NCBI GenBank assembly: GCA_949318235.1
Contig: OX439130.1
Coordinates: 37,685,851-37,749,850 of the forward strand
Length of the DNA stretch: 64,000 nt
Source of the DNA: Ecdyonurus torrentis
Lineage: Eukaryota > Arthropoda > Insecta > Ephemeroptera > Heptageniidae
Reading direction: 5' to 3'
The first letter of the stretch is position 1, and each line of letters opens with the position of its first letter. Shown here piece by piece: positions 33,601 through 64,000 of the stretch. The translations under genes and the position numbers were made by a program. The notes beneath the pieces were generated by a model. The model saw nothing but the letters and a program-made list of their open reading frames with translations. It did not search any database and was not told the origin of the DNA.

Positions 33601-35573
33601 CAATGATGCTATCTAAATTAATTATAATTTATTATAATATAATTAATATATAATTTAATATTGTTTTTATCCCTCTTCATATTTTTAGTCTTTTGTGTGT
33701 ATATGAAATTCCAGATATTTGTTACTTCTGCAAGTTTGACTGCAAAATCATCATGAATTACTAGAAACACCATACAAAAGAAAAAAATACGATTGACTGC
33801 CTATTTAGAATCATATAATAAAAGTTTATCAGTTCAGGTTTTGCAACCGTGTGTAAAAATTCAGTGCGAATGAGTTTTTATAATATTCATAGTGTTGATA
33901 ATTTGTATTTGTGCTAAATAGTTTTATATTACGCAAGTTAACTTTTTGTTATATACTTACAATTCATATCATGTGACAATTACTATTTCTTTATCTTTAA
34001 TTGTTAATTGCTTGTGAAATTGGTTTGTGCAATAATGTACGTAAGTTGACAATGTAATTATAATTAATCTAATATCATTACCATGTTGTACTATATATAA
34101 CATTATTATATTATTGAAGTGTTAATTTATTAATAAAAATGTGACGAGTTATTTCTCAAGATGAAATGTCTTCGCAATTTTCAAAAGATTTGGATATAAA
34201 TGGAGGTGCGTAAGTATTACAATAATTAACTTAAGAAATGGTGTACTTATTCTAATGTTGATTTGTGATTTGTGTTGATAATGTGATTTTGTTGATTAGC
34301 ATCAATAAAACCCGGAATCCAATTTTTTTTTTCGGTTTTTGGTTACAAAATTTTGCTCATTTATATATAGTATATAATGAGTAATGACTAATAATGAGCA
34401 TTTTATAGAAAAAAAAATGTTGCTTGTCGGTTTTTGTTTAGTGTGTTCAGTGTGCACCGATTAAAATATAATAATAAATTACTTACCATTAAAAATCTTC
34501 TTAAATTTTGGTTGCGTATGGTGAAAAACTACGGTCTAATTTTATTGTTATTCTCAAGCATTGACATCACAATGCACTGTTACACTGTATATTTTTTAAA
34601 TACCCTTAAGTTGATAAATATAATTTTGATTAATTAACAAACAAATCAGTTTTTACATAGCATGCACAAATAATCAGTAAAATTAAAACCACAAATCAAT
34701 GCACTCTTTCATTACAAACTGAACACTGAAATCCAAACATAAAGAAGAAAGCTATATGAGAGGCTATTTCCACTTTTTACAACGGCGGCACCCGCGACGA
34801 AAAATTTTCGCCGATCGAATTGAAATTTATACACGAAGTACATACTAATGAAACATGTTTCGTCATATAATATTTCTGAAAATTTTTATTTGGTTTGCGA
34901 GATACACGTATTTGAAAATGGCGGCCCATGCGCGATATGGGCATTTAGAGTCAACTTCTGGGCTCTGCATCTTTTCGTATAAAAGAGATATTTTAAAAAT
35001 TCTTTTTCGAGGGAGTAGACCAACATGTTAACTTATAATTTATTTGTGCACCAAAATTTCAAAACAACCCAAAGTATTTTTTAATAATTTAAAAAAAATG
35101 CCGAGATTCTTCAAAATTGCCTATTTTCTACGACCCGGCAAAAATACTAAAAAAATTTTTTAATGATATTTAACGCACTTTTTAGTTCAATAGTATCCTT
35201 ATTAATACTTTTTTATAGAAAAAGTAATTTTTGAAAATTTACATAAAGTACAATACTCGACAAAACAACCGACATTTTGTCAAATTGATGATATTTGACC
35301 TCAAATATGGCCGTGTTACCCATTGTTTTCGGAAAATCAAAGTTGATGAAAAGAAAGCTTACATCTTACTATACACAAGCAAAAAATAAAAAATGTGCTT
35401 ATGAAGTTGCATCTACGTTTTGTAGCTATCTTCGTAACTTGCTTTTCGCGCGCTATACGTGATGTCAGCGGCTGCATATAAACATGCCCGCTAACATTAA
35501 AACGACCAAAAATGTTGTTAAAATATTATATCTTTATAGTTTTGTTGACTTGAGTCAATTTTTTTATTGTTTC

Positions 35574-35607
<34 letters not shown>

Positions 35608-35753
35608 TTGAGTTATGCTTAATTTTTGAGGATTCCTCTTCCCGCTAACTTAATCCAGGGTAAGGGCAACTTCTAAACCTGCAATAGAATAGACATGGAG
35701 ACCCCACCATTAAAAAATTCTTAAAAATAGGTCATAAGTCAGTTTGTACTAAT

Positions 35754-37732: not shown

Positions 37733-38530
37733 GTACTAATATATATATAAAGATTATAACAAAATAGAATTATTATTTCCATTTTTTTTTGTAAAGTAAT
37801 CTATAAATAATACAGATAGTAACATGCCTTTTTTTTCCAGAAAACATCAGATTTTATTTGTATGATTGTTTATTTGATTTATTTCCTTTTTTACAGTTTT
37901 ACAGTAGAATACTTTAGCAATTACAGATGAAACCGCAGCAGGTTCAGGAAAATCTTATAATCTTCTATTTCTAAGTATTGCAAAACGATTGTTTTCAGCT
38001 ATTTGCAGTTTTTCTTTTTTTTTACATTTTTTTTATATATAAATTAAATACATGAATGTATTATAATTTTTTCACCTCGGTGCATTAATTTTCATCTTAA
38101 AATATTATAATAAAAAACATTGTTTAGCAATGCTTAGAAATAGAAGATTATAAAATTTTCCTGAACCTGTTCGCGGTTCCGCCTGTAATTGGCGAGAGTA
38201 TTCTATACTGGTAAATTGTTATAAAACAGGAATAATAATAAAAATAAAATTGATAAACAATAAAACAAATAGATTCTGATGTTTTCTGAAAAAAAAAGTC
38301 ATGTTACTATCTGTATTATTTATAGATTACTTTACAAAAAAAATGGAAATAATAATTTTTTTTTGTTATAATCTTTATATATATATTAGTACAAACTGAC
38401 TTATGACCTATTTTTAAGAATTTTTTAATGGTGGGGTCTCCATGTCTATTCTATTGCAGGTTTAGAAGTTGCCCTTACCCTGGATTAAGTTAGCGGGAAG
38501 AGGAATCCTCAAAAATTAAGCATAACTCAA

Positions 38531-38564
<34 letters not shown>

Positions 38565-39383
38565 GAAACAATAAAAAAATTGACTCAAGTCAACAAAACT
38601 ATAAAGATATAATATTTTAACAACATTTTTGGTCGTTTTACTGTTAGCGGGCATGTTTATATGCAGCCGCTGACATCACGTATAGCGCGCGAAAAGCAAG
38701 TTACGAAGATAGCTACAAAACGTAGATGCAACTTCATAAGCACATTTTTTATTTTTTGCTTGTGTAGAGTAAGATGTAAGCTTTCTTTTCATCAACTTTG
38801 ATTTTCCGAAAACAATGGGTAACACGGCCATATTTGAGGTCAAATATCATCAATTTGACAAAATGTCGGTTGTTTTGTCGAGTATTGTACTTTATGTAAA
38901 TTTTCAAAAATTACTTTTTCTATAAAAAAGTATTAATAAGGATACTATTGAACTAAAAAGTGCGTTAAATATCATTAAAAAAATTTTTGAGTATTTTTGC
39001 CGGGTCGTAGAAAATAGGCAATTTTGAAGAATCTCGGCATTTTTGTTAAATTATTAAAAAATACTTTGGGTTGTTTTGAAATTTTGGTGCACAAATAAAT
39101 TATAAGTTAACATGTTGGTCTACTCCCTCGAAAAAGAATTTTTAAAATATCTCTTTTATACGAAAAGATGCAGAGCCCAGAAGTTGACTCTAAATGCCCA
39201 TATCGCGCATGGGCCGCCATTTTCAAATACGTGTATCTCGCGAACCAAATAAAATTTTTCAGAAATATCATATGACGAAACATGTTTCATTAGTATGTAC
39301 TTTGTGTATAAATTTCAATTCGATCGGCGAAAATTTTTCGTCGCGGGTGCCGCCGTTGTAAAAAGTGGAAATAGCCTCTCATA

Positions 39384-40405
39384 TAGGATTATTAATCGCA
39401 AGAACTCACCTATTCACCTTAGACTTTGAACTTTATGATACATGAAATATGTAAAGGGCTAAGTGAGTAATAATATATAATCCTTCTCTTTATGTTTCGA
39501 TTTCAGCGCAAGTTTGAACATAAAAGTGAAGGGAGTGAATTTATGGTCCTAATATTATTTATTCATTTGTTTATATTAGTACATGTAAAGTGTTTTATTA
39601 AGTGATACTGATAATTATTATTTATCAAATACAATTATGTTTAAAATTTTTTACTTAAGTTATTAAATAATGTGTCAGTAAAATGAATAAAATTTAAAAA
39701 ATATGCATGTGCGCAAGTAATTAATACTCTGTTATTATTTATTATTTTGACATATGATATAAAAAATAATTACATATTTATAATCTTTAAAGTAGTTTAT
39801 AAAATGTGACTGATACGACATTCAATAAGAATGGCATTATTTTAAATAATAAAAATTCAAAATTTAGAGTACACTATAATTATACTAAAATTTATAATAA
39901 AAAAAAGACATTAAATTTAAACCTTTACTCACACACACATATATAATATTATATATATATAAATATATATAATATGTAATACAGTATATTATTATTGTTT
40001 CATTGGGGTTAAATGGCCTGGGGTAAAAATACCTTAAGGCCAATACAGTATATTATAATAGATTAAAAACAGTTTTGTTTACTTTAAATCATTGGCCAAA
40101 ACTATAATTATAATGTTAACACCGGGTTTTTACTTTTTGCGAAACATGATCATTACTGGAAATGAGCAAAATTTCGTGACCATATAAAAGCCGTAAAAAC
40201 TTGGATTCCGGCGGGTTTTGGTGCTAACACACAATTATATTATAATAAGTCAGTTGCGTAAAAGTACGTCGTTAGGTACGTTAGTTTTCAGGGAGAAAAT
40301 TGAGATAACTTTAATATGTGGTAATAAATAATAATAGAAGATTAGCATGAAAGCGTTAGCATATATATAGTGTTAGCATTAGCATGAAAACCTATGAAAT
40401 TTTAG
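39384..40405. other. Non-coding stretch upstream of the receptor exon
   Basis: AT-rich sequence between the fold-back element and the first identified receptor exon. It contains short TA and CA repeats at about 39930-39970. I could not find an ATG exon that splices in frame to the receptor here. Confidence 0.45.
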
Positions 40406-40408
40406 CAG

Positions 40409-43438
<3,030 letters not shown>

Positions 43439-45101: not shown

Positions 45102-48100
45102 CTAGCCTTTAGTAAATTTCAAATTTAATTTTTATTCAAAATTGAACAGATGATGTAAGACATTATAATAATTTTTAGTTTTGTCCCTGCCTGATGAACT
45201 AGCCCCATTGAACTAGATCTAAATAGCTGTCAACTAATTTACACATTGCTTGCTTGGTAACACAAACAGGTTGCTGGGCTTAGTTGGTGTGTAGGCTAGT
45301 TATCCACAAACATTGCTCATAGAGAAGCAAGCTTGGGGATGCAAGCCATTGATATTGCACTGAAGTGGAAACTAAGAGAGCAACTTGCTCAATAGTACTC
45401 GGCAGTGCTGACTTAACTTAAGCTACACACTAACCTAGAAATCATATTGTACATTATAAAAATGTTTTAGAAATCACTCAATTACTCAAAGTTTACTAAA
45501 CTTGGGATGCAATGAAGATTTCAACAAATTAACAATTTACTGTTTATTAGATTTCTAAGTTAAAATAAAAATTCTCTTGTTTCCTTGAATCTCACTTATC
45601 TTACTTGGATAACTGTGGAAATTCTAAAGCTAATACATGCAACCAGAGACGCAACCAGAAATGGGCAAGGCACACTTATTAGATGAAAATGAGCATCAGT
45701 GGAAGCTGACACATCACACTTTAGACAGCACTCAGGTAGGTTTCCAAATTAAGCCATAATTCTAGTATAATAGTAAAATTCTGTTCCCACTTTCATTTCC
45801 ATTGCAAACAGCCACTTCTTAATTTTTGTCTTTACAATACAGGAATTTTATTTTTTCTTGGTAAATTAAAATTTCTATGAAAGCTTTTCATCAATCAAGA
45901 ATAGCTAATTCAAATTCACAATATTTAAGGTTGATCAATGACTAAAATTTCAAGTGATTGGACGTTCATCAGCTTCTATCATATTTGCTCTTCCCTAAAC
46001 ATCCGAATGCTATTTTATTTCTAAAGAATCTATAAGACATTCCTTGCAGCAGATATTGACAATTGTTTTGAGGCTGACTTGAAGCAAATTCGCTCACCAC
46101 TGCTTCAATGTTCTACAGATGCGTAGTATGTCAGAACAGAAGCCAATGTTAGCTAAATTGCTTGATGTCAGCCTCGAATCAGTTGCTTCTTCACTAGTCA
46201 ATTTGATGCTATCATTTTCTGACCTTGGCAGTAATCACTTATTTTTGTAGGGTACGTGATAATAAGAAAAAATGGGAAGAGCCTGTTAAGACACAATATG
46301 ATGAACTTGAGTACACTTATCTGTGGCCTAAAGACTACTTGAGAGGAGATACGTTTTCAAAATGAAGGGGTTCAGAACTCAAACCACGTACAGGCGAGAG
46401 CTAGGCTGCCACCTCTGCACTCGCAATACCTCCAAATCTTTGCATTGACTTCTCGTCATTCATTATATTGTTAACATTCTTGCAAATATAATGACAAAGA
46501 GAATTTTACAACCGACAACAAGGCAATGAAAAAGTCTGCAAGTGTTACAAATACAGAGCTTGTAACATCCACTTAACTGAGCACAGTTCTGATCACAACA
46601 AACTCAACTGTGCTATAGAAAAAGTGTACATTTTTAATTTCCACACAATTTACTCTTCACACCAGAGAAAGAATGATGCTTGTCATTACTGGAACCACAT
46701 AAACACATGGGTTTTGCATTATTGATTTTGATCTCATGGTTTCAACTTAAAGATAGCATTACTACTATTTTTATTACTTGGAAAATACTCAAATCTCAAT
46801 TTTACACAGAGGACATTTTATTTTCAATGACTCTGATAGACACTCCACAGCTGGAGAGATATGTATATGTACCTTGTGTTCAATGTTGGTCTGCTGGTTC
46901 TTATCAAGATGAACTTTGGTCAGCTGGGAGCCGTCCAGTCTCACTCTAATACGCTTGCCTACAATTTCTGCAGGGAAAACAAGGTCTTCTAGGATAGCAT
47001 CATAAACTGCAGTCAATGTGCGACTGAAACACAAAACATAAACATGTCAATCACTATGGCAAATTTTCAATTATAAACAGTACACAATTTCTAATTACCC
47101 ATAATTAGTCAGAAATGTAGCCTTACGGGTACCATTTCAGATTGAAATAAAGCAATAATAAATAAAAAAATGACAACAAACCTTTTTTTAAATTACTAAT
47201 AGTATAAAAAAATTGTTTATAGCCTCATTTCAGATTAGCAAAAAATGAATAATTAAATAGCAAACAAGTATTTTTTTATCTATTTTTTTTTTTTTGCGCA
47301 AGCTAGAATGATTTGCATCCCTAGTCCCAATTTACTATTTAAATTAGAGAATTTTCGCGTTTTATTAATTTTCAATTCAATCTCTACCAACTATTTTCTA
47401 ATTATTTTTTTTAAACGTAATTAATACTAATTGCGATGGTTTTTTCCTATATATTAAATAGCAAACAAGGTTTAAAAATGCCCCCCCCCCCCCCCATTTT
47501 GGTTTTACTATTACTTTTTAGTTATTTAGATCTGTTGAAAAATCTCGCACCACTAGGGTTTTGATAAAAGGTACCAGTACATTGAATTTGTTGAGACTAT
47601 AATCAATCAAGTCCTTTCATATAAGTTGAGGGTCTCATTGAACTAGATGTACAAAAACTTTCAACTAATGTACACAACTCTTGCTTACTAACACAATCAG
47701 CTAGCTAGGTTTATTTGTTGTAGGCTAAAAGTACGCACAAACATTGCTCAGAGAGAAGCAAGCTTGGGGATGCAAGCCGTTGATATTGCACTGAAGTGGA
47801 AACTAAGAGAGCGATTTGCTCAATAGTACTCGGCAGTGCTGACAAACCTAAGCTGTACTTCTAAGACCCAACAGTTCTGGCATGATAATAATAATGAAAC
47901 AATAAAGTTAACTACTTACTGCAATAATGATTATACCTAGCTATGGTGATACCCTAAGGTTATATAAGTCCTTAGCATCTTCCCCCATTGTTTTATTTTT
48001 TAGAAGCAAGTGATAAAATTCAGTTCTTAACTTACAACAAACTAAATCAACAAATTTAGCTACATTTAATTATTACATTTATCACAATAAATACCAACAA

Positions 48101-56006: not shown

Positions 56007-59000
56007 GAAGATTTTTTTTTTCATTTTTCAATTGCTTGTATAGTATTTCTCCCCCACCCCTTTTTTTCAATAATGAGAACTACATTGTTCAAATCAATGA
56101 AATTTGCCGCGGCGCCAAGTTGATTGACATTCAGCTACAAGACAATGTCCAAAGTATTTGTGTTATATTGTCTGAGTTTAAAGTAAATTTTTTGGATACA
56201 CTATTGTATATAGTATAAGTGCTGATTTCTAACTGGATTTGCTATTAGATTTATTTGTAATTATTGTACAATAAAATATTTCCTAAAAACATTATAAAGT
56301 AAATTTCTTGAAAATTAGGGGAAATACTGGGCAGAGTACGGGGCAACTTTTCTCCCTCTTCTATAAAATTTTTCACGATCTCACATTATTAAAAATTTGA
56401 GTTTCATATTAGAAGTAATTTTTAAGTCATAACATATTGTCTCTCCACACCGATTTTGTATTTATCTATTATAAAGTTGCAAAGTTATTCATATGTGATA
56501 TAAAATCTAAAACGTACAGTACAACTTATCAGTGCAATTTTATCATTTTATTACTATTCTATAAAAAATTCTATAAAAAAAATGATGTTATTAAAAATTT
56601 GGAAAATATAGTATCGTTATCGTGAAATTATCGTTATAGTTATAGTATCGTTATAGTTTTCAAAAAAATAAAAAGTATCGATATCGTTATAGTTATAGTG
56701 TGAGGCTAAAATATAGTATCGTTATCGTTATAGAAATTTTGGGTATCGAACCCAAGACTGGCTTTTTTTGCTAAAAATAAAAACTTTTTTTCCGGACTCT
56801 AGACTAATGGACATAGCCAGTCGAAGGCTGATGCTCCTTTATAATATTGTGCCTTTGATGTAGCGTGAGAACGTGAGATACTGGATTATATTACGTGTTA
56901 TTCAGATACTAAACTATCATGTTTCATTGACATAGTATCCATATCCTTTTAACGTCTTTTTTATCTAGCACTCGTCTATGCTAGAACATTTGGTCTCAAG
57001 TCCCAATTTACTAAATAAATTAGAGAATCTTCATGTTTTATTAATTTTCAATTCAATGTGCTGTTATCTCTACCTAAATTTTTATATTAAAATATCTTAT
57101 TAAATTACATGCCTATTATTTTAAAGATAAGTTATGCTTACTTGTGTAAATAGTACGGAAGTGATTGGTGGGTACAAAGCCAATAGGACTAGGCCTAGGA
57201 ATTACGTTGTTTGCATGGTCTCGCACTCTTGCTGCCAACATCCAGCCCTGTGCCCGCAATTGCTGCTGCTCACTGGGTGCCATGGCCAGCACGTCACCAG
57301 CATTGAAGCTCAGGTCACCCTCTTGACGACCCTGGAAGCTGTATGCTGCCTGAGCGATGTAGCAGGGGGCAATACCTCGCATCCACGGTTCCTCCTGGAG
57401 TTGTGGTTCTGCACCCAGAGATAGCAAAAAATAAATATTAATATAATTGTAAGTTGGGAAAATATTAGTATCAAAATATTAAAATATTTATTTAATTATT
57501 TCACACAAAGTAGTTGCACATATTGTAAATATTGCAGTCACATTTATGTGTTTGCAAGTAACCAGAGAGCAGAAGTTACAGGAATATTTATTATACAATG
57601 CAAGATTAGCAGCACCAATCCTGATCATAATTAAATCATTTTCAATCCCAAACTTATGGGAGGGGGGGGGGGGGGGGGAACTACCCAAAATTTATTTTGA
57701 GGATGTTAAGAGTTTTAATGATTTTTGAAACCATACTGACTTACTATAATTCTTGGCTACCCATTCTGAAATTTACAATTATGGTAGATTTGGTAAATAC
57801 GACCCATACCTGAAGTTGCGGCAGCTGGATCATCTGCTAGTGATCTCTGCACAGAACGCAGTAGCTTCCAGATAAGGTACGGTCCTCCCACAACAAGGCT
57901 CATGAACATCACTATAGGCCACGCAGACTTATTTTCTGGGCTGCTTCCTGCTGCTGCAGCAAGCCCTACTCCAGCTTCCACACTTGCCTCATTCCAAACT
58001 TGCTCTGCAGCACCAGGCTTGCGCAATCCTAGGGACAAAACATGTTATTTTTAATACATACATACATATCATGACGCTACAATCCCTTTCAGGGTAAGCC
58101 AACAACACAGATGTTTTATCCTGACCAAGTGATAGACCTCCACAACTTCCTATACTGACATACTTCACTTGCTTCCTCCAGTCTCATAACTTGTTTCATA
58201 CATTTCCTTTTGCATTTCATACTGCGTACATTCTTATTTTTCAAACATCTTCCAACCACCTGAGACCATGATGTTTTAGGCCTGCCTCTATCTCTCCTTC
58301 CATCCACTCTACTATGAAATACCTGCTTTGCTATTCTTTCATCACCCATTCTCTCAACATGACCAAACCACCGTAATACACTGTTCTCATACTTCTCAGT
58401 CAGTTTCTTTTACTCCACATTTCTCCATCACCCAAGTATTCCTTACCCTATCTAATCTTGTTTTACCACACATACTTCTAAGAAAACTCATACCAACAGC
58501 ATTCACCCTACTCATATGCCTACTCTGACATACCCATGATTCAGAACCATATAAGATAGTTGGGAGTAAGACAGAATTGTACACTGTAAGTTTTGCTTTG
58601 TTTGATAAAGCATCACTCTTGGCCAATCCTGCCATGCTGCCAACTACTTTCCTACCTGCCGCCACTCTCCTCTCAATCTCCCCATCTATACTTCCATTCT
58701 CTTGATATAATCTTCCCAAATATACAAACTCTTTCACTCTTTCCAGCTTTTCTCCATTCAGTGTGAACTCATTTCCATCATCATTTTCTCCACCAAATAC
58801 CATTACTTTAGTTTTCCCAACATTTATTCTCAAATCCATTTGTTCTGTACTTTCTTCCAACCTATCAATCATCTCTTGCAGTTCTTCCTCACTCTCAGCC
58901 ACCATCAAAGCATCATCAGCGTACAACAGCATCCACACCATTAACAAACCTACGTTTACTCCACTTCTATACTTTTCAGCCAACTTTATACATTTATCCA

Positions 59001-59124
59001 TGAAATTTTTTTTTTAATAATACAGTAATTTAAATTACATGTATGGAAAATTTTGCCTTTGTAGTGGTTGACTAATAAAATTATTTGATAGTAAAAAATA
59101 CAGATACCTGTAGTGATCTGGACT

Positions 59125-59155
<31 letters not shown>

Positions 59156-59823
59156 CACACAAAACATCCTTGTGAGCTTACTACTCGCTATCTCACATAC
59201 AAAAAAAAAGTTGAAGAAAAGTAACTATTGCAGTTGGATACAAGTAATTAAAAGGAAAGGATAGTGGAAATCAGCAAGGGTCTTATTATAGTGAAGTAGT
59301 ATTAGTATGGGTGAAAATTCTCACTAGTACCTACACAATATCCAGTGTGTCTATTATTATTTCTATGCTACACAGTAATCAAGAATTTTAACCTTTACTA
59401 TAAGACAGTACTTAACTACTGTAAGGTCCTTGTTTATTCCCAATAAATATCTTCCTTTTAATTTATTTACACATAGAAATAGTCTAAAAATATTCCCATT
59501 TGAGTAATAAACAAAATATACAACACATTTTCTTTTAATAACCATGGAATTTAAACTCTCGCCTAGACTACTCACGGAGGATCTCCAGCAGTTTGTGAGC
59601 TGCCCAGCGCACGGCTCTGAAGATAGTGAGAGCAGAGAAGACCTGAGCCAGCAAGCCTCTCATGCGACCAAAGTTCTCAGCCACGCCAAGCACTGCTCGG
59701 AATGAACTGTGAATTGCAAAGAAGGTTGACTCCATCATCATGCTGACAGAACCAAATGCATGGACTAGGGACTCTAGAGACTCAAAGGCTGGTCTTGAGT
59801 TTTCCTCTGCTAGCTGGATGAAC
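53384..59823 (-). CDS. Pex13: Peroxin 13 (PEX13), 5' partial
   Basis: PEX13 is a peroxisomal membrane protein of the docking complex for PTS-receptor import. Four minus-strand exons join in frame: 59823-59576, 58028-57810, 57408-57142 and 53766-53384. They encode about 371 residues. The first begins FIQLAEENSR and includes the conserved SMMMESTF block. The second has the membrane segment PIVMFMSLVVGGPYLIWKLL. The third is the SH3 domain (AQAAYSF, GDLSFNAGD, GWML, GFVPTNHF). The fourth is a long Pro/Thr/Asn-rich tail with a tandem TPNGGQPQQA repeat. The N-terminal exon(s), with the family's Gly-rich start, lie beyond the region I can resolve, probably past 64000. The tail is unlike the vertebrate C-terminus I know. 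Identity is firm; the missing start is the main gap. Confidence 0.93.
53691..53761 (-). repeat. 30-nt coding tandem repeat in the PEX13 tail
   Basis: A 30-bp unit, encoding TPNGGQPQQA with one variable residue, occurs twice back to back and is followed by the start of a third (TPN). It is in frame and so lengthens the tail without disrupting it. Confidence 0.8.
54830..55407. mobile_element. Element with GATC-rich subterminal motifs, hAT-like right end
   Basis: Dense GATC/CGATC motifs in both orientations occupy about 54855-54950 and 55245-55395, separated by AT-rich sequence. The right end, CGACTACAACACTG, read inward as CAGTGTTGTAGTCG, resembles the ends of the elements at 36158 and 55546. 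A left terminus and target duplication were not resolved, so the left limit is approximate. It lies in the last PEX13 intron. Confidence 0.5.
55546..56760. mobile_element. hAT-like element with TATCG/TATAGTTATCG subterminal array
   Basis: It starts CAGTCTTGGGGTCGATTATC and ends GGGTATCGAACCCAAGACTG, giving inverted ends. A perfect 8-bp duplication, GCTTTTTT, flanks it (55538-55545 and 56761-56768). The subterminal zones are degenerate arrays of TATAGTTATCG-type motifs in both orientations (about 55557-55700 and 56608-56735). The centre is AT-rich with a poly-A run. It is 1215 bp, has no transposase frame, and sits in the last PEX13 intron. Confidence 0.85.
56804..57075 (+). mobile_element. 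Diverged copy of the segment downstream of the hammerhead
   Basis: On the plus strand this parallels the minus strand of about 61153-60900. Shared phrases are GCTGATGCTC, TTATAATATTGTGCCTTTG, GTGAGAACGTGAGAT, AGTCCCAATTTACT and TTAATTTTCAATTCAAT. Similarity fades close to the point that corresponds to the ribozyme cleavage site. It lies in the last PEX13 intron, just upstream of the SH3 exon on the plus map. Confidence 0.65.
57661..57678. repeat. Poly-G tract
   Basis: A G run of about 18 in the PEX13 intron between the SH3 exon and the membrane exon. On the gene strand it is poly-C. Confidence 0.85.
58055..59005 (-). mobile_element. 5'-truncated non-LTR retrotransposon fragment (RTE-like)
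   Basis: On the minus strand, 59001-58396 encodes about 200 residues. They contain the reverse-transcriptase catalytic motif YADD (in LLYADDALMVAES), the motif YLG after FV, and the C-terminal SVLLPTILYGSESW and FLRSMCG blocks typical of non-LTR elements. A frameshift near 58390 moves the remaining C-terminal part (RWFGHVERMG, RGRPKTSW) into another frame. The element ends in a short (ATGT)n tail at 58055-58069. The 5' part is lost at a poly-T/AT junction near 59005. It lies in a PEX13 intron in the same orientation, its tail about 26 nt from the acceptor of the membrane exon. It is a dead copy. Confidence 0.88.
59130..59154. repeat. Poly-T tract
   Basis: A T run of about 25 in the PEX13 intron, next to the retroelement fragment. 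Confidence 0.85.
59225..59475. mobile_element. Diverged copy of the 60433-60744 palindromic MITE
   Basis: Left-half phrases GGAAAGGATAG, CAGCAAGGGTCTTA, TATAGTGAAG and GGTGAAAAT parallel those of 60445-60520. The right half, GTAAGGTCCTTG followed by TTTTAATTTAT, parallels the mirror arm. The middle is rearranged. It lies in a PEX13 intron. Confidence 0.45.
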
Positions 59824-60133: not shown

Positions 60134-60249
60134 TCTCATGAAGGGAAAAAATACAATGCAAAATAAAAAATAAAAATATAATTAAAAAATCTTTAAAACA
60201 AACACATAAATTATTTATTTTAATATAAAAATATCGTGATTTATCAATA

Positions 60250-60347
60250 ACTATATATATATATATATATATATCGTCGTGGTTCCGCTATAATGTCCGA
60301 TGTCCAAATGACCTTGAAAAAATAAAAATCGTCTGATCGACCCCATA

Positions 60348-60395
<48 letters not shown>
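60250..60395. mobile_element. Half copy of a small MITE between TA arrays
   Basis: Between a short TA array (60250-60274) and another at about 60348-60393 lies about 70 bp containing TTCCGCTATAATGTCC and TGACCTTGAAAAA. It corresponds to one arm of the palindromic element at 61543-61693. The other arm is missing. Confidence 0.6.
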
Positions 60396-60399
<4 letters not shown>

Positions 60400-60432
60400 G
60401 TATATTAAGGAAGATAAACCATCACGGTTAGG

Positions 60433-60744
60433 TATGATAAATTGACAGAAAAGGATAGGAGAAAACCAGCAAGGGCCTTACCATAGTGAAGAGAGTCCCA
60501 TAGTTCGGTGAAAATCTTGCTAGCACAGATATAAAATAACCAACACATTGGAAATATTTCGGCAATCGACTCCAAGAGAGATATGGAGCGTGTTATGCCT
60601 TCTTCAGTCGATTGCCAAAATATTTCCAATGTGTTAGTTATTTTATATCTGAGCTAGCAAGATTTTCACCAAACTATGGGACTCTCTTCACTATGGTAAG
60701 GCCCTTGCTGGTTTTCTCCTATCCTTTTCTTTCAATTTATCATA
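60433..60744. mobile_element. Palindromic MITE flanked by TA arrays
   Basis: The left arm (about 60433-60573) is repeated inverted at about 60602-60744, separated by a loop of under 30 bp. The outer ends read TATGATAAATTGA and TCAATTTATCATA. TA arrays lie on both sides, immediately adjacent on the right. It has no coding capacity. The target is probably TA. Confidence 0.8.
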
Positions 60745-60857
<113 letters not shown>

Positions 60858-61147
60858 GGAAAAAACCATCGCGGTTCGTATTAATTACGTTTAAAAAAAT
60901 AATTAGAAAATAGTTGGTAGAGATTAGAGCACGTTGAATTGAAAATTAATAAAACGCGAAAATTTTCTAATTTAAATAGTAAATTGGGACTAGGGATGCA
61001 AATTATTCTAGCTTGCGCTAGATAAAAATAGACGTTAAAAGGGATGAGGGGTATAGTGTCAATGTAAAATACGATATACCTAACATCTCACGTTCTCACA
61101 TTACATCAAAGGCACAACATTATAAAACAGCATCAGACTTACTCTTG

Positions 61148-61192
61148 GCCTTAGACCGGTTTCGTCCTTTACCTAGGACTCATCAGTAAGGC
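61148..61192 (-). ncRNA. Type I hammerhead ribozyme
   Basis: On the minus strand the core is complete. Stem I is GCCUUA pairing perfectly with UAAGGC. CUGAUGA follows, then stem II GUCC/GGAC closed by the 8-nt loop UAGGUAAA, then GAA, and a very short stem III in the self-complementary ACCGGU. The GUC cleavage triplet puts the predicted cut between 61154 and 61153. Open stem I makes it type I. A two-base-pair stem III is typical of retroelement hammerheads that act better as dimers. All core positions are canonical. Activity is inferred, not shown. Confidence 0.88.
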
Positions 61193-61244
61193 TCGGCAGA
61201 GAGCTCTGTACAGCTAGAGATGGCTCACACCACATCTGCTAACT

Positions 61245-61316
61245 GACTGAGCTGAGGAAGCAAGTGGCAGCCGCGTTTTTATACGCGATGCCCCCGCAGC
61301 TGCTCGCGCTGATTGG
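61245..61316 (-). promoter_or_regulatory. CCAAT/TATA/initiator-like promoter upstream of the hammerhead
   Basis: On the minus strand, CCAAT at 61316-61312 is followed by TATAAAAA at 61283-61276. An initiator-like TCAGTC at 61250-61245 lies about 35 bases from the TATA start. The predicted transcript would contain the ribozyme about 55 nt from its 5' end. The spacing fits RNA polymerase II, and use is inferred. Confidence 0.55.
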
Positions 61317-61542
61317 TTGAACAATCGCGCGCGCAAACCCGGCTTGCTATTTAAAACCTCTCATCCTCACACTGTAATATAATATTGTGCACTAAGAGGG
61401 ATGCAAGACTGGCTGCCAACAAGCCACGTGTGCCCTCCCTCACTTCCTAGAGTTCCCCAACTCCAGAAAGTTCGCGAGAGCAATGCGCCTGCCGGCCGCC
61501 TGTATCGTGATTAAGCTAGTTACATCATATATATATATATAT

Positions 61543-61693
61543 CGAGGGTGCTCCGCTATAATGTCCTAAGTCCACTTGACCTTGAAAAATAAAAAATCGT
61601 CAAATCAACCCCAAATTTTGGTTCAGGTCATTTGTAGCAAAAAATGTTTTTCAAGGTCAAATGGACTTAGGACATTATAGCGGAGCACCCTCG
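61543..61693. mobile_element. Small palindromic MITE in a TA array
   Basis: A 151-bp element with ends CGAGGGTGCTCCGCTATAAT and its mirror ending GAGCACCCTCG. TATATATA sits directly on both sides. The arms also share GTCCTAAGTCCA and the inner TGACCTTGAAAAA motif. It is non-coding. A half copy lies at about 60275-60345. Confidence 0.88.
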
Positions 61694-61705
61694 ATATATA
61701 TATAT

Positions 61706-63975
61706 CGTCAGTAGTCAGCCAAACGTACTTGTCCATGAACCATGACTTTATGGTAGAGTTATGATTTTTTCAGAATTAAGTCACCTTACCATAGGTACTT
61801 CAAAGCACGTGTTAAAAAAAATCGGAAAAATTTGCCGCGGAAAATACGGCGCCTTCTAATTTTCTAACTTAGCCAAAGGTAGGGTTGATTATTTTCACAT
61901 ATCTTTTTTTCCAATGGAGATACATAAAAAATAAAAAGTGGGGTTGTTTAAGAATAAATAAGCGCATAAATGACCTATGTACTGTCATGACCTTGACCTT
62001 TATTTTGGGTCATTTTTTTAGTAAAAAATTACAAAAATACATATAAAAATAACAACGGCTTATTTTATGGCAAATGAGTATAGCAGTTATATGCGCACAC
62101 ACCTAACCTACAAAACTGTGTGAGTCAAGTTAAGGTGAACTTGATACAATTAAAGTTTAACTTAAAAATGTAGAGTAACCTAAGCGCGCAGCCATACTTT
62201 ATACTGATATACCAATGCTCTCTCACTTGATACGAAGTGCGTAAGTTTACACTGTTTTAAATATAAAAAAATATATATATAAAATATATTGTGACAGTAC
62301 AATACAGCTACTAAAAAATTATAGCCAATTATTTTCTAGCATAGGAAATTATAGCAAGTTACGTAATTAAAAGATCACATTTCTATTAATTTCTGATCAA
62401 ATTCAATAAAAATTATATAAAAAAAAAAGCTTGATGTCACAAAAAATGAATAAATTTTAAGTTTTACACCATTCGAGCAAAAAATGAAATTGTATCGCGG
62501 GAAATTTAAAATTAAAATGCTCTCTTACTTGATACGAATTGCGTAAGTTTACGCTGCGTTTTAAATTTAAAAAAAAATATTGTTACATAAGTACAGATAC
62601 TAAAAAATTATAACAAATTATTTTCTAGCATAGCAAATTATAGCAAGTTACGTAATTAAAAGATCACATTTCTATTGACTTCTGATCAGATTCGATAAAA
62701 ATTCTTTAAAAAAAGAAAAAAAAATTGCTTGATGTCAGAAAAAAATGAATAAATTTTAAGTTTTACTACATTCGAGCAAAAAATGATTAAAGGTGTAGAA
62801 CACCTTGTACAAAAAAGTTGAGTAATATCCTAACAAATCTGAAAATCAACGTTGATTAGGCCGGAGTCATTGATTTCTAATTTATTTTCCATTCACAAAA
62901 TACCGCTGCCCGATTCTATAGTATATTTCGGTGCAACATGGACTGACTTAATACATAAGATCAAAAAAAATTGTGTGCCGATTTTAATGATTTTATTTTG
63001 AAAACAAAAAATCAATTTTATTGCTTGAAGACAAAACAACACCATACCTAATGTACCATAGTAGTAAATAAAATTATAAAATTTTAGAATTGTTGACTTG
63101 TTTTGTTAAAATTAAAAAAAAAAACTCAAAATAAATAACATCTCGCAAAAAAAAAAAAAAAAACTTTTAAATTTCCCGCCACACAATTTCAATTTTTGCT
63201 CGAATGGTGTAAAAACTTAAAATTTATTCATTTTTTGTGACATCAAGCTTTTTTTTTTATAATTTTTATTGAATTTGATCAGAAATTAATAGAAATGTGA
63301 TCTTTTAATTACGTAACTTGCTATAATTTCCTATGCTAGAAAATAATTGGCTATAATTTTTTAGTAGCTGTATTGTACTGTCACAATATATATATATTTT
63401 TTTTTTTATTTAAAACGCAGTGTAAACTTACGCACTTCATATCAAGTGAGAGAGCATTTGTATATCAGTATAAAGTATGGCTGCGCGCTTAGGTTACTCT
63501 ACATTTTTAAGTTAAACTTTAATTGTATCAAGTTCACCTTAACTTGACTCACACAGTTTTGTAGGTGAGGTGTGTGCGCATATAACTGCTATACTCATTT
63601 GCCATAAAATAAGCCGTTGTTATTTTTATATGTATTTTTGTAATTTTTTACTAAAAAAATGACCCAAAATAAAGGTCAAGGTCATGACAGTACATAGGTC
63701 ATTTATGCGCTTATTTATTCTTAAACAACCCCACTTTTTATTTTTTATGTATCTCCATTGGAAAAAAAGATATGTGAAAATAATCAACCCTACCTTTGGC
63801 TAAGTTAGAAAATTAGAAGGCGCCGTATTTTCCGCGGCAAATTTTTCCGATTTTTTTAACACGTGCTTTGAAGTACCTATGGTAAGGTGACTTAATTCTG
63901 AAAAAAACATAACTCTAGCATAATATATCATAATATCATGGTTCATGGACAAGTACGTTTGGCTGACTACTGACG
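61706..63975. mobile_element. Second large fold-back element, TA-flanked
   Basis: The left arm (61706 to about 62512) is repeated inverted at about 63163-63975, with few differences. The outer ends read CGTCAGTAGTCAGCC and GGCTGACTACTGACG, each bordered by TA repeats. The innermost 300 bp of the left arm is duplicated in direct orientation (about 62214-62515 and 62516-62787), so one unit occurs twice on the left and once on the right. The central unpaired part runs from about 62788 to 63162. No transposase frame is seen. Confidence 0.88.
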
Positions 63976-64000
63976 ATATATATATATATATATATATATA
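63976..64000. repeat. (TA)n microsatellite at the window edge
   Basis: A TA array that follows the second fold-back directly and continues past the window. Confidence 0.9.

Follow-up and report, generated by a model that had tools for sequence, protein, structure and literature searches.

A minus-strand hammerhead ribozyme in the window (the whole 64,000-nt stretch of DNA analyzed here) belongs, with a probability that we put at roughly 0.85, to a non-autonomous retroelement that has a 902-nt unit without a long open reading frame (ORF) and is mobilized by a Penelope-like element (PLE) resident in the same genome. Our best reading of the sequence is a retrozyme-like, PLE-mobilized element with its own promoter and a ribozyme that would cut in vivo. 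The driver of animal retrozymes is an open question, as is any action of their hammerheads in transposition. PLEs are named as strong candidate drivers in a passage of one report (PMC7229834), and the 2025 view, as put in a section of another, is that LINEs or PLEs may mobilize retrozymes (PMC12029980). Here, one genome combines a young element with its likely driver, a block of recognition sequence shared by the two, matching tailed and untailed ends, and joints at the predicted cut, which makes both questions directly testable in a single species.

A type I hammerhead ribozyme on the minus strand

From 5' to 3', the ribozyme reads GCCUUA, CUGAUGA, GUCCU and AGGAC around the loop AGGUAA, GAA, A(CCGG)U and C, followed beyond the cut by UAAGGC; it has the conserved core CUGANGA...GAAA...NUH with helix I open, as defines type I hammerheads (Table 1). 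The Rfam model Hammerhead_1 aligned to it end to end (model positions 1-45 of 45) at 30.0 bits, below the gathering score of 34, with E = 1.8e-5 when 501 bp were searched and E = 0.0023 for the 64-kb window. It was the only hammerhead listed in the window at E <= 10, and a default Rfam scan at the gathering score yields none there. A structural descriptor (stem I of 6 bp, CUGANGA, stem II of at least 4 bp, GAA, an A-U-closed stem III and H17) matched the window once, at the same 45 nt, and also matched 1 of 300 dinucleotide shuffles. On the strength of the window-wide E value and the shuffles, we rejected a chance match.

These results confirm the preliminary description, which had claimed an intact hammerhead with a canonical core that was very unlikely to be random; the covariance match falls exactly at the locus, although short of the curated cut-off. 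Its 6-bp stem I also stood, whereas stem II, given as exactly 4 bp, can reach 5 bp. Stem III, described as the tiny palindrome ACCGGU and likened to that of retroelement hammerheads that may act as dimers, is indeed palindromic, but as a hairpin it amounts to a single A-U pair with the palindromic tetraloop CCGG on top. The 5' end that had been expected at 61153 agrees with the cut predicted here.

Beyond an internal loop (CUGCCGA/CA), stem I can take in further pairs, GCUCU/AGAGU. When the 45 nt are folded alone, the minimum-free-energy structure (-14.7 kcal/mol) differs from the hammerhead, which reaches -5.8 kcal/mol, a gap of about 9 kcal/mol, and the energy model predicts that the palindrome ACCGGU can pair two molecules at -8.3 kcal/mol. 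The newt and axolotl satellite hammerhead HHR_Amex1 likewise has a helix III of one A-U pair with a palindromic tetraloop, and a passage on it reports that the monomer was cut by 6% in an hour and the dimer far better (PMC7229834). The window hammerhead differs from HHR_Amex1 in host and in repeat. Among 44 fetched copies spanning the hammerhead, which were picked by likeness to the window copy and include that copy and a segmental duplicate pair (L010/L011), 38 carry an identical 45-nt ribozyme; a check for helix covariation thus met nearly uniform copies. A literature search combining hammerhead ribozyme and mayfly found no paper.

Table 1. Positions of the ribozyme, the element copies and neighboring features in the window
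Feature	Positions	Strand	Basis and details
Type I hammerhead ribozyme	61148..61192	-	Rfam RF00163 match, shuffle test and copy identity; predicted cut 61154/61153
Copy A of the element	60847..61538	-	Unit about 211-901 of 902; BLAST 95-98.6% to L001 and L003-L008; unit alignment
Palindromic TA-rich repeat in place of the 5' part of copy A	61527-61706		Arms 61531-61589 and 61647-61705
CCAAT motif	61312..61316	-	Sequence; putative function
TATA-like box, TATAAAA	61277..61283	-	Sequence
Initiator-like TCAGC/TCAGT sites	61242..61255	-	Their A lies 30, 35 and 39 nt past the first T of the TATA box
GTAAGT, candidate splice donor, consensus-like	61137..61142	-	12 nt past the cut; sequence
Optional 3' tail with AACCGCGATGGTTTTTTCCT, common to the PLE	60847..60879	-	AACC/GGTT able to pair
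Head-to-head pair of PLE 3' fragments	60405..60744	.	Arms 60433-60571 and 60606-60744; tail AACCGTGATGGTT at 60417
Copy B, 5'-truncated, tailed	47271..47452	+	17-nt target duplication ATTAAATAGCAAACAAG at 47252-47268 and 47453-47469
Copy C, older	56820..57090	+	Homology starts about +14 from the predicted cut

A young repeat with a 902-nt unit

An exact search for the 19-mer spanning the cut found 380 occurrences in the genome (503 Mb in 117 contigs), implying at least 380 copies. A search with positions 61050-61400 of the minus strand gave 44 matches among those listed, 86-100% identical, with 40 of 1,617 candidates scored. From eight 3.35-kb and twenty 10-kb genomic loci (the 28 unit-bearing loci inspected, L001-L028, of at least 380 anchor copies), we derived a unit of 902 nt. 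Its longest ORF is 68 aa, and the reverse transcriptase plus GIY-YIG ORF of an autonomous PLE is absent. The unit comprises a GC-rich block with CCAAT, TATAAAA and TCAGC/TCAGT motifs, followed by the hammerhead; a 3' tail of 33 nt is optional, and in most fetched ends the 3' end of the unit takes one of two forms, at position 865-869 or 901-902. The hammerhead family is a young, repeated, protein-less mobile element.

We take the CCAAT of copy A to be the known motif of that name, with a putative function here. The combination of TATAAA with TCAGT 24-45 nt further on occurs three times in the window, both strands counted, and is weak by itself, so the promoter is put forward as a proposal only. 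A relative of the TA-flanked palindromic repeat beside copy A lies at 60232-60348. Next to copy C, a stretch in reverse orientation (56740-56823) looks tRNA-like by eye and is perhaps a SINE; ARAGORN lists no tRNA for it.

Insertions resemble those of Penelope-like elements

Copies are arranged as partial tandems with a period of about 903 nt and as head-to-head pairs. We examined 108 anchor places on contigs C1 and C4, made up of the first 100 in the list of 380 and 8 of the 18 that lack a C before the cut. Head-to-head pairs numbered 27 and tail-to-tail pairs 0; of 8 pairs of same-strand neighbors, 6 were spaced by 900-907 nt. Clear target duplications of 13-16 nt that are not simple repeats were present at 7 of 16 loci (L012, L014, L017, L018, L020, L022 and L024), with TA or A runs or shorter matches at others (15 nt and A-rich at L021, 10 nt at L028, 9 nt at L009 and 8 nt at L019); a target duplication was sought at L026 and none was found. 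With limits for tail and no tail that were fixed after the unit alignment of the fetched ends had been seen, 13 of 14 head-to-head insertions had one tailed and one untailed end, and the 14th (L023) was interrupted. Three copies of one head-to-head insertion on a 238-kb contig (C23:6100, 62945 and 169214) probably reflect segmental duplication.

Head-to-head arms, partial tandems, variable target duplications and an optional tail are the marks by which sections of two reports characterize PLEs, the tail being what separates two start sites of reverse transcription (PMC3846280, PMC11167929). The retroelement setting proposed earlier for this hammerhead is strongly borne out by a young repeat family with such Penelope-type insertions. 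Like PLEs of the Penelope/Poseidon type as described in those sections, the element has head-to-head inverted repeats, partial tandems, target duplications and an optional tail, there of 30-40 bp, as well as TATA and initiator motifs, there placed in the pseudo-LTR (PMC3846280, PMC11167929). It departs from their descriptions in that its unit is non-coding and its hammerhead is not the minimal PLE variant without helix III. An LTR retrotransposon was rejected on the lack of a long ORF, the 13-17-nt duplications and the head-to-head arms. A DNA transposon with long inverted repeats, suggested by the near-perfect palindromes, was rejected because the arms are unequal, 5'-truncated and partly tandem.

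Tandem units within one insertion were near-identical in 4 of 7 pairs (differences of 0/434 at L015, 1/473 at L023, 1/647 at L024 and 2/188 at L019), closer to each other than in nearly all comparisons with other loci. In the other three (2/158 at L003, 0/123 at L020 and 7/329 at L022), the two units were not evidently more similar to one another than to the rest of the copies. Near-identical tandem units fit a single template read round, as a circle might be; a recent multimer, or conversion between neighbors, would also produce them.

Relation to known retrozymes

The closest published relatives are the metazoan non-LTR retrozymes (Cervera and de la Pena 2020, PMC7229834), which share with our element, in the parts of that account used here, a non-coding tandem unit bounded by type I hammerheads and no LTR features. 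Could the element then be an ordinary retrozyme of this kind, that is, a short tandem repeat that carries a type I hammerhead and is read through from outside, circularized and mobilized by a non-LTR element? The hammerhead type, the partial tandems, the absence of a long ORF and the near-identical tandem units would all suit this, yet we regard it as doubtful: the unit is 902 nt rather than about 170-400 nt, and the promoter-like block, the head-to-head arms and the tail and junction block that it has in common with the PLE are absent from the retrozyme descriptions consulted. For the plant NbRZ1, a section of a later report describes a promoter of its own (PMC12029980). Plant LTR retrozymes, which are characterized by LTRs, a PBS and a PPT, have type III rather than type I hammerheads and 4-bp rather than 13-17-nt duplications. 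The element fits neither an autonomous PLE (no ORF) nor a published metazoan retrozyme (size and promoter-like block); it appears to be retrozyme-like in its working and PLE-like in its insertion.

Joints of head-to-head pairs are concentrated at the predicted cut

We counted head-to-head joints over the whole genome using exact patterns in which the arms begin near chosen anchors. The anchor at +16 gave 18 joint places and that at +1 gave 8, compared with 2, 1 and 0 for control anchors at -80, -33 and +36, respectively; these are raw counts, not scaled to the abundance of the control anchors. In the 18 joints of the +16 anchor, two of whose strings are identical, the longer arm starts between -2 and +11, with 4 starting exactly at +1 and 2 more compatible with such a start through microhomology. 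At the 8 places of the +1 anchor, the arms include bases upstream of the cut, and most meet at ACC|GGT. Four of these (C1:49276123, C8:36210217, C10:34176548 and C21:23176065) share one C-to-T variant in one arm and so are probably not independent; they look as if an already inverted copy had been recopied or duplicated. Within the main subfamily, the 18 places without C before the cut comprise 5 true +1 starts and 13 that are either point mutants or carry an insertion or a shared variant. A two-base test for starts at +2 found 6 places, so +1 is no lone spike.

A reverse transcriptase that copied cut RNA as far as the 5' end would leave such a pile-up. Part of it could come from stops at RNA structure or from joining guided by the palindrome, and we think it possible, albeit rather unlikely, that all of it arose in the absence of cleavage, through stalling of the reverse transcriptase on the folded ribozyme or through annealing of the palindrome. 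Several joints do meet at ACC|GGT, starts are spread over +1 and +2, and the hammerhead region is strongly paired in the predicted circle, each of which such stopping or annealing would explain. Against it, the 18 joints of the +16 anchor start at -2 to +11 and none further upstream, although for one arm the pattern would have admitted starts as far as about 15 nt upstream.

A resident Penelope-like element as the likely driver

Locus L026 holds both the hammerhead element and a PLE fragment. When a 159-aa C-terminal PLE piece from this locus was searched against the genome, 150 of 646 candidates were scored, and 147 of these 150 were 100% identical at the protein level. PLE open frames reach 1,027 aa, and many head-to-head pairs occur among the scored places; judging from these sequences, the resident PLE would be young and autonomous. 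Against Pfam, its protein matched RVT_1 at 25.8 bits, below the cut-off of 29.6, and gave no GIY-YIG match; relatives at about 40% identity carry PF00078, PF28514 and PF26215, and often PF01541 (GIY-YIG).

The 3' ends of the PLE come in the same two kinds, tailed and untailed, as those of the element unit. Eight of 11 PLE head-to-head clusters score as one tailed plus one untailed end, one of the eight (L040) having its tailed end at an internal tandem junction. Moreover, the PLE tandem junction (L049, also L040) aligns to the tandem junction of the unit, with AACCGCGATGGTTTTTTCCT identical in both. Tail plus tandem junction reached a local alignment score of 61, compared with at most 44 in 300 shuffles. 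Counting against the proposed link, the block in common is a short one, with 20 identical nt and about 62 nt at 81% identity. A search of viral contigs for the shared 3' motif gave 0 matches.

LINE/SINE pairs offer a precedent, the non-autonomous element borrowing the 3' recognition end of its driver. The present pair resembles them in this borrowing. It differs in having a PLE as driver, a shared block that extends across the tandem junction, and a promoter that looks to be of the polymerase II kind. Literature searched by title and the start of the abstract contained no report of a PLE-driven retrozyme, which is not proof of absence.

In contrast to Penelope/Poseidon PLEs that carry hammerheads, the resident PLE had none listed in 13 loci scanned with Rfam at E <= 5 or E <= 1, a scan that covered the loci apart from the middle of the ORF. 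The sequence TTGATAATGTCATTATCATATGACGAAAG, present at L049 (631-668) and in PLE 3' ends, resembles by eye half of a degenerate hammerhead; Rfam lists none there. On its downstream side, copy A adjoins the PLE 3'-fragment pair of the window (Table 1), and fragments of the PLE occur close to many further hammerhead copies, those at L018, L024 and L026 among them.

Alternatively, a second autonomous PLE might exist, with full copies that went unseen, and the 902-nt unit would be its pseudo-LTR. Sections of two reports state that PLE pseudo-LTRs can carry promoters and minimal hammerheads (PMC3846280, PMC7761336), and the 28 unit-bearing loci inspected are a small part of at least 380 copies. We nonetheless hold this to be improbable: the 900-907-nt spacing of same-strand neighbors in 6 of 8 pairs leaves no place for an ORF between those units, and in the 20 PLE loci L029-L048 the unit matched only stretches of 28-62 nt, at the tail or junction, in 16 of 20.

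A proposed life cycle

Returning to a non-autonomous element driven by the resident PLE, we propose the following cycle. Polymerase II would start at the TATA/TCAGT promoter of the unit, and the transcript of tandem copies would be cut by its hammerheads, probably best as dimers formed through the ACCGGU palindrome. Cutting would permute the unit, so that the tail and the PLE-shared block become internal. The PLE protein may then bind the tail or shared block, make nicks in the two strands of AT-rich DNA, staggered by 13-17 bp, and prime two cDNAs, one at the tailed and one at the untailed site; nicking and priming of this kind are described for a lizard PLE in a section of PMC11167929. Joining of the two cDNAs head to head would yield the anatomy observed. 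With a cut linear RNA as template, arms would end at the cut or a few nucleotides inside it, where the joints pile up. Arms that run through the ribozyme need an uncut or re-closed RNA as template; this, possibly as circles, could also give the partial tandems seen.

In its full form, the proposal makes the element a ribozyme-bearing RNA parasite of the PLE, cut in vivo, copied by the PLE to its 5' end to leave the joints, and recopied from re-closed circles into tandems. To this complete chain of events we give even odds; if true, it would provide direct genomic evidence for PLE mobilization of a retrozyme-like element.

The PEX13 locus and other features of the window

The ribozyme lies on the same strand as exons of PEX13 (59577-59822, 57757-58038 and 57116-57427). 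Over 82 residues, the first of these is 89% identical to PEX13 of the mayfly Cloeon dipterum, and the best protein match overall is a 396-aa protein at 53%. Judged by these matches, the window is animal DNA of an insect-like genome, and the host is probably a mayfly or a near relative of mayflies. Searched against the whole genome, the Cloeon protein recovered only two of the three window exons, at this locus, and no exon for the N-terminus in the window or genome; the ribozyme may therefore sit within an intron of PEX13 or ahead of the gene. A role as an exon or UTR of PEX13 is weakened by the at least 380 copies of the element. That the hammerhead acts on the PEX13 transcript, cutting the pre-mRNA or offering an alternative first exon (promoter, then GTAAGT donor), is very improbable despite its sense orientation to the exons at 59577-59822 and downstream and its promoter-like block and donor-like site, since it is one of so many repeat copies and, with no N-terminal exon found, may be either intronic or upstream.

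A reverse transcriptase ORF at 58396-59001 (RVT_1, 33.7 bits), situated in a PEX13 intron, belongs to a different retroelement family. The window also holds a large fold-back of over 2 kb at 61694-63987, with arms that are 96-98% alike, and an inverted repeat of 1,002 nt at 99% identity (34752-35753 and 38385-39386). The ORFs at 40424-41674 look by eye like pieces of a rhodopsin-type receptor.
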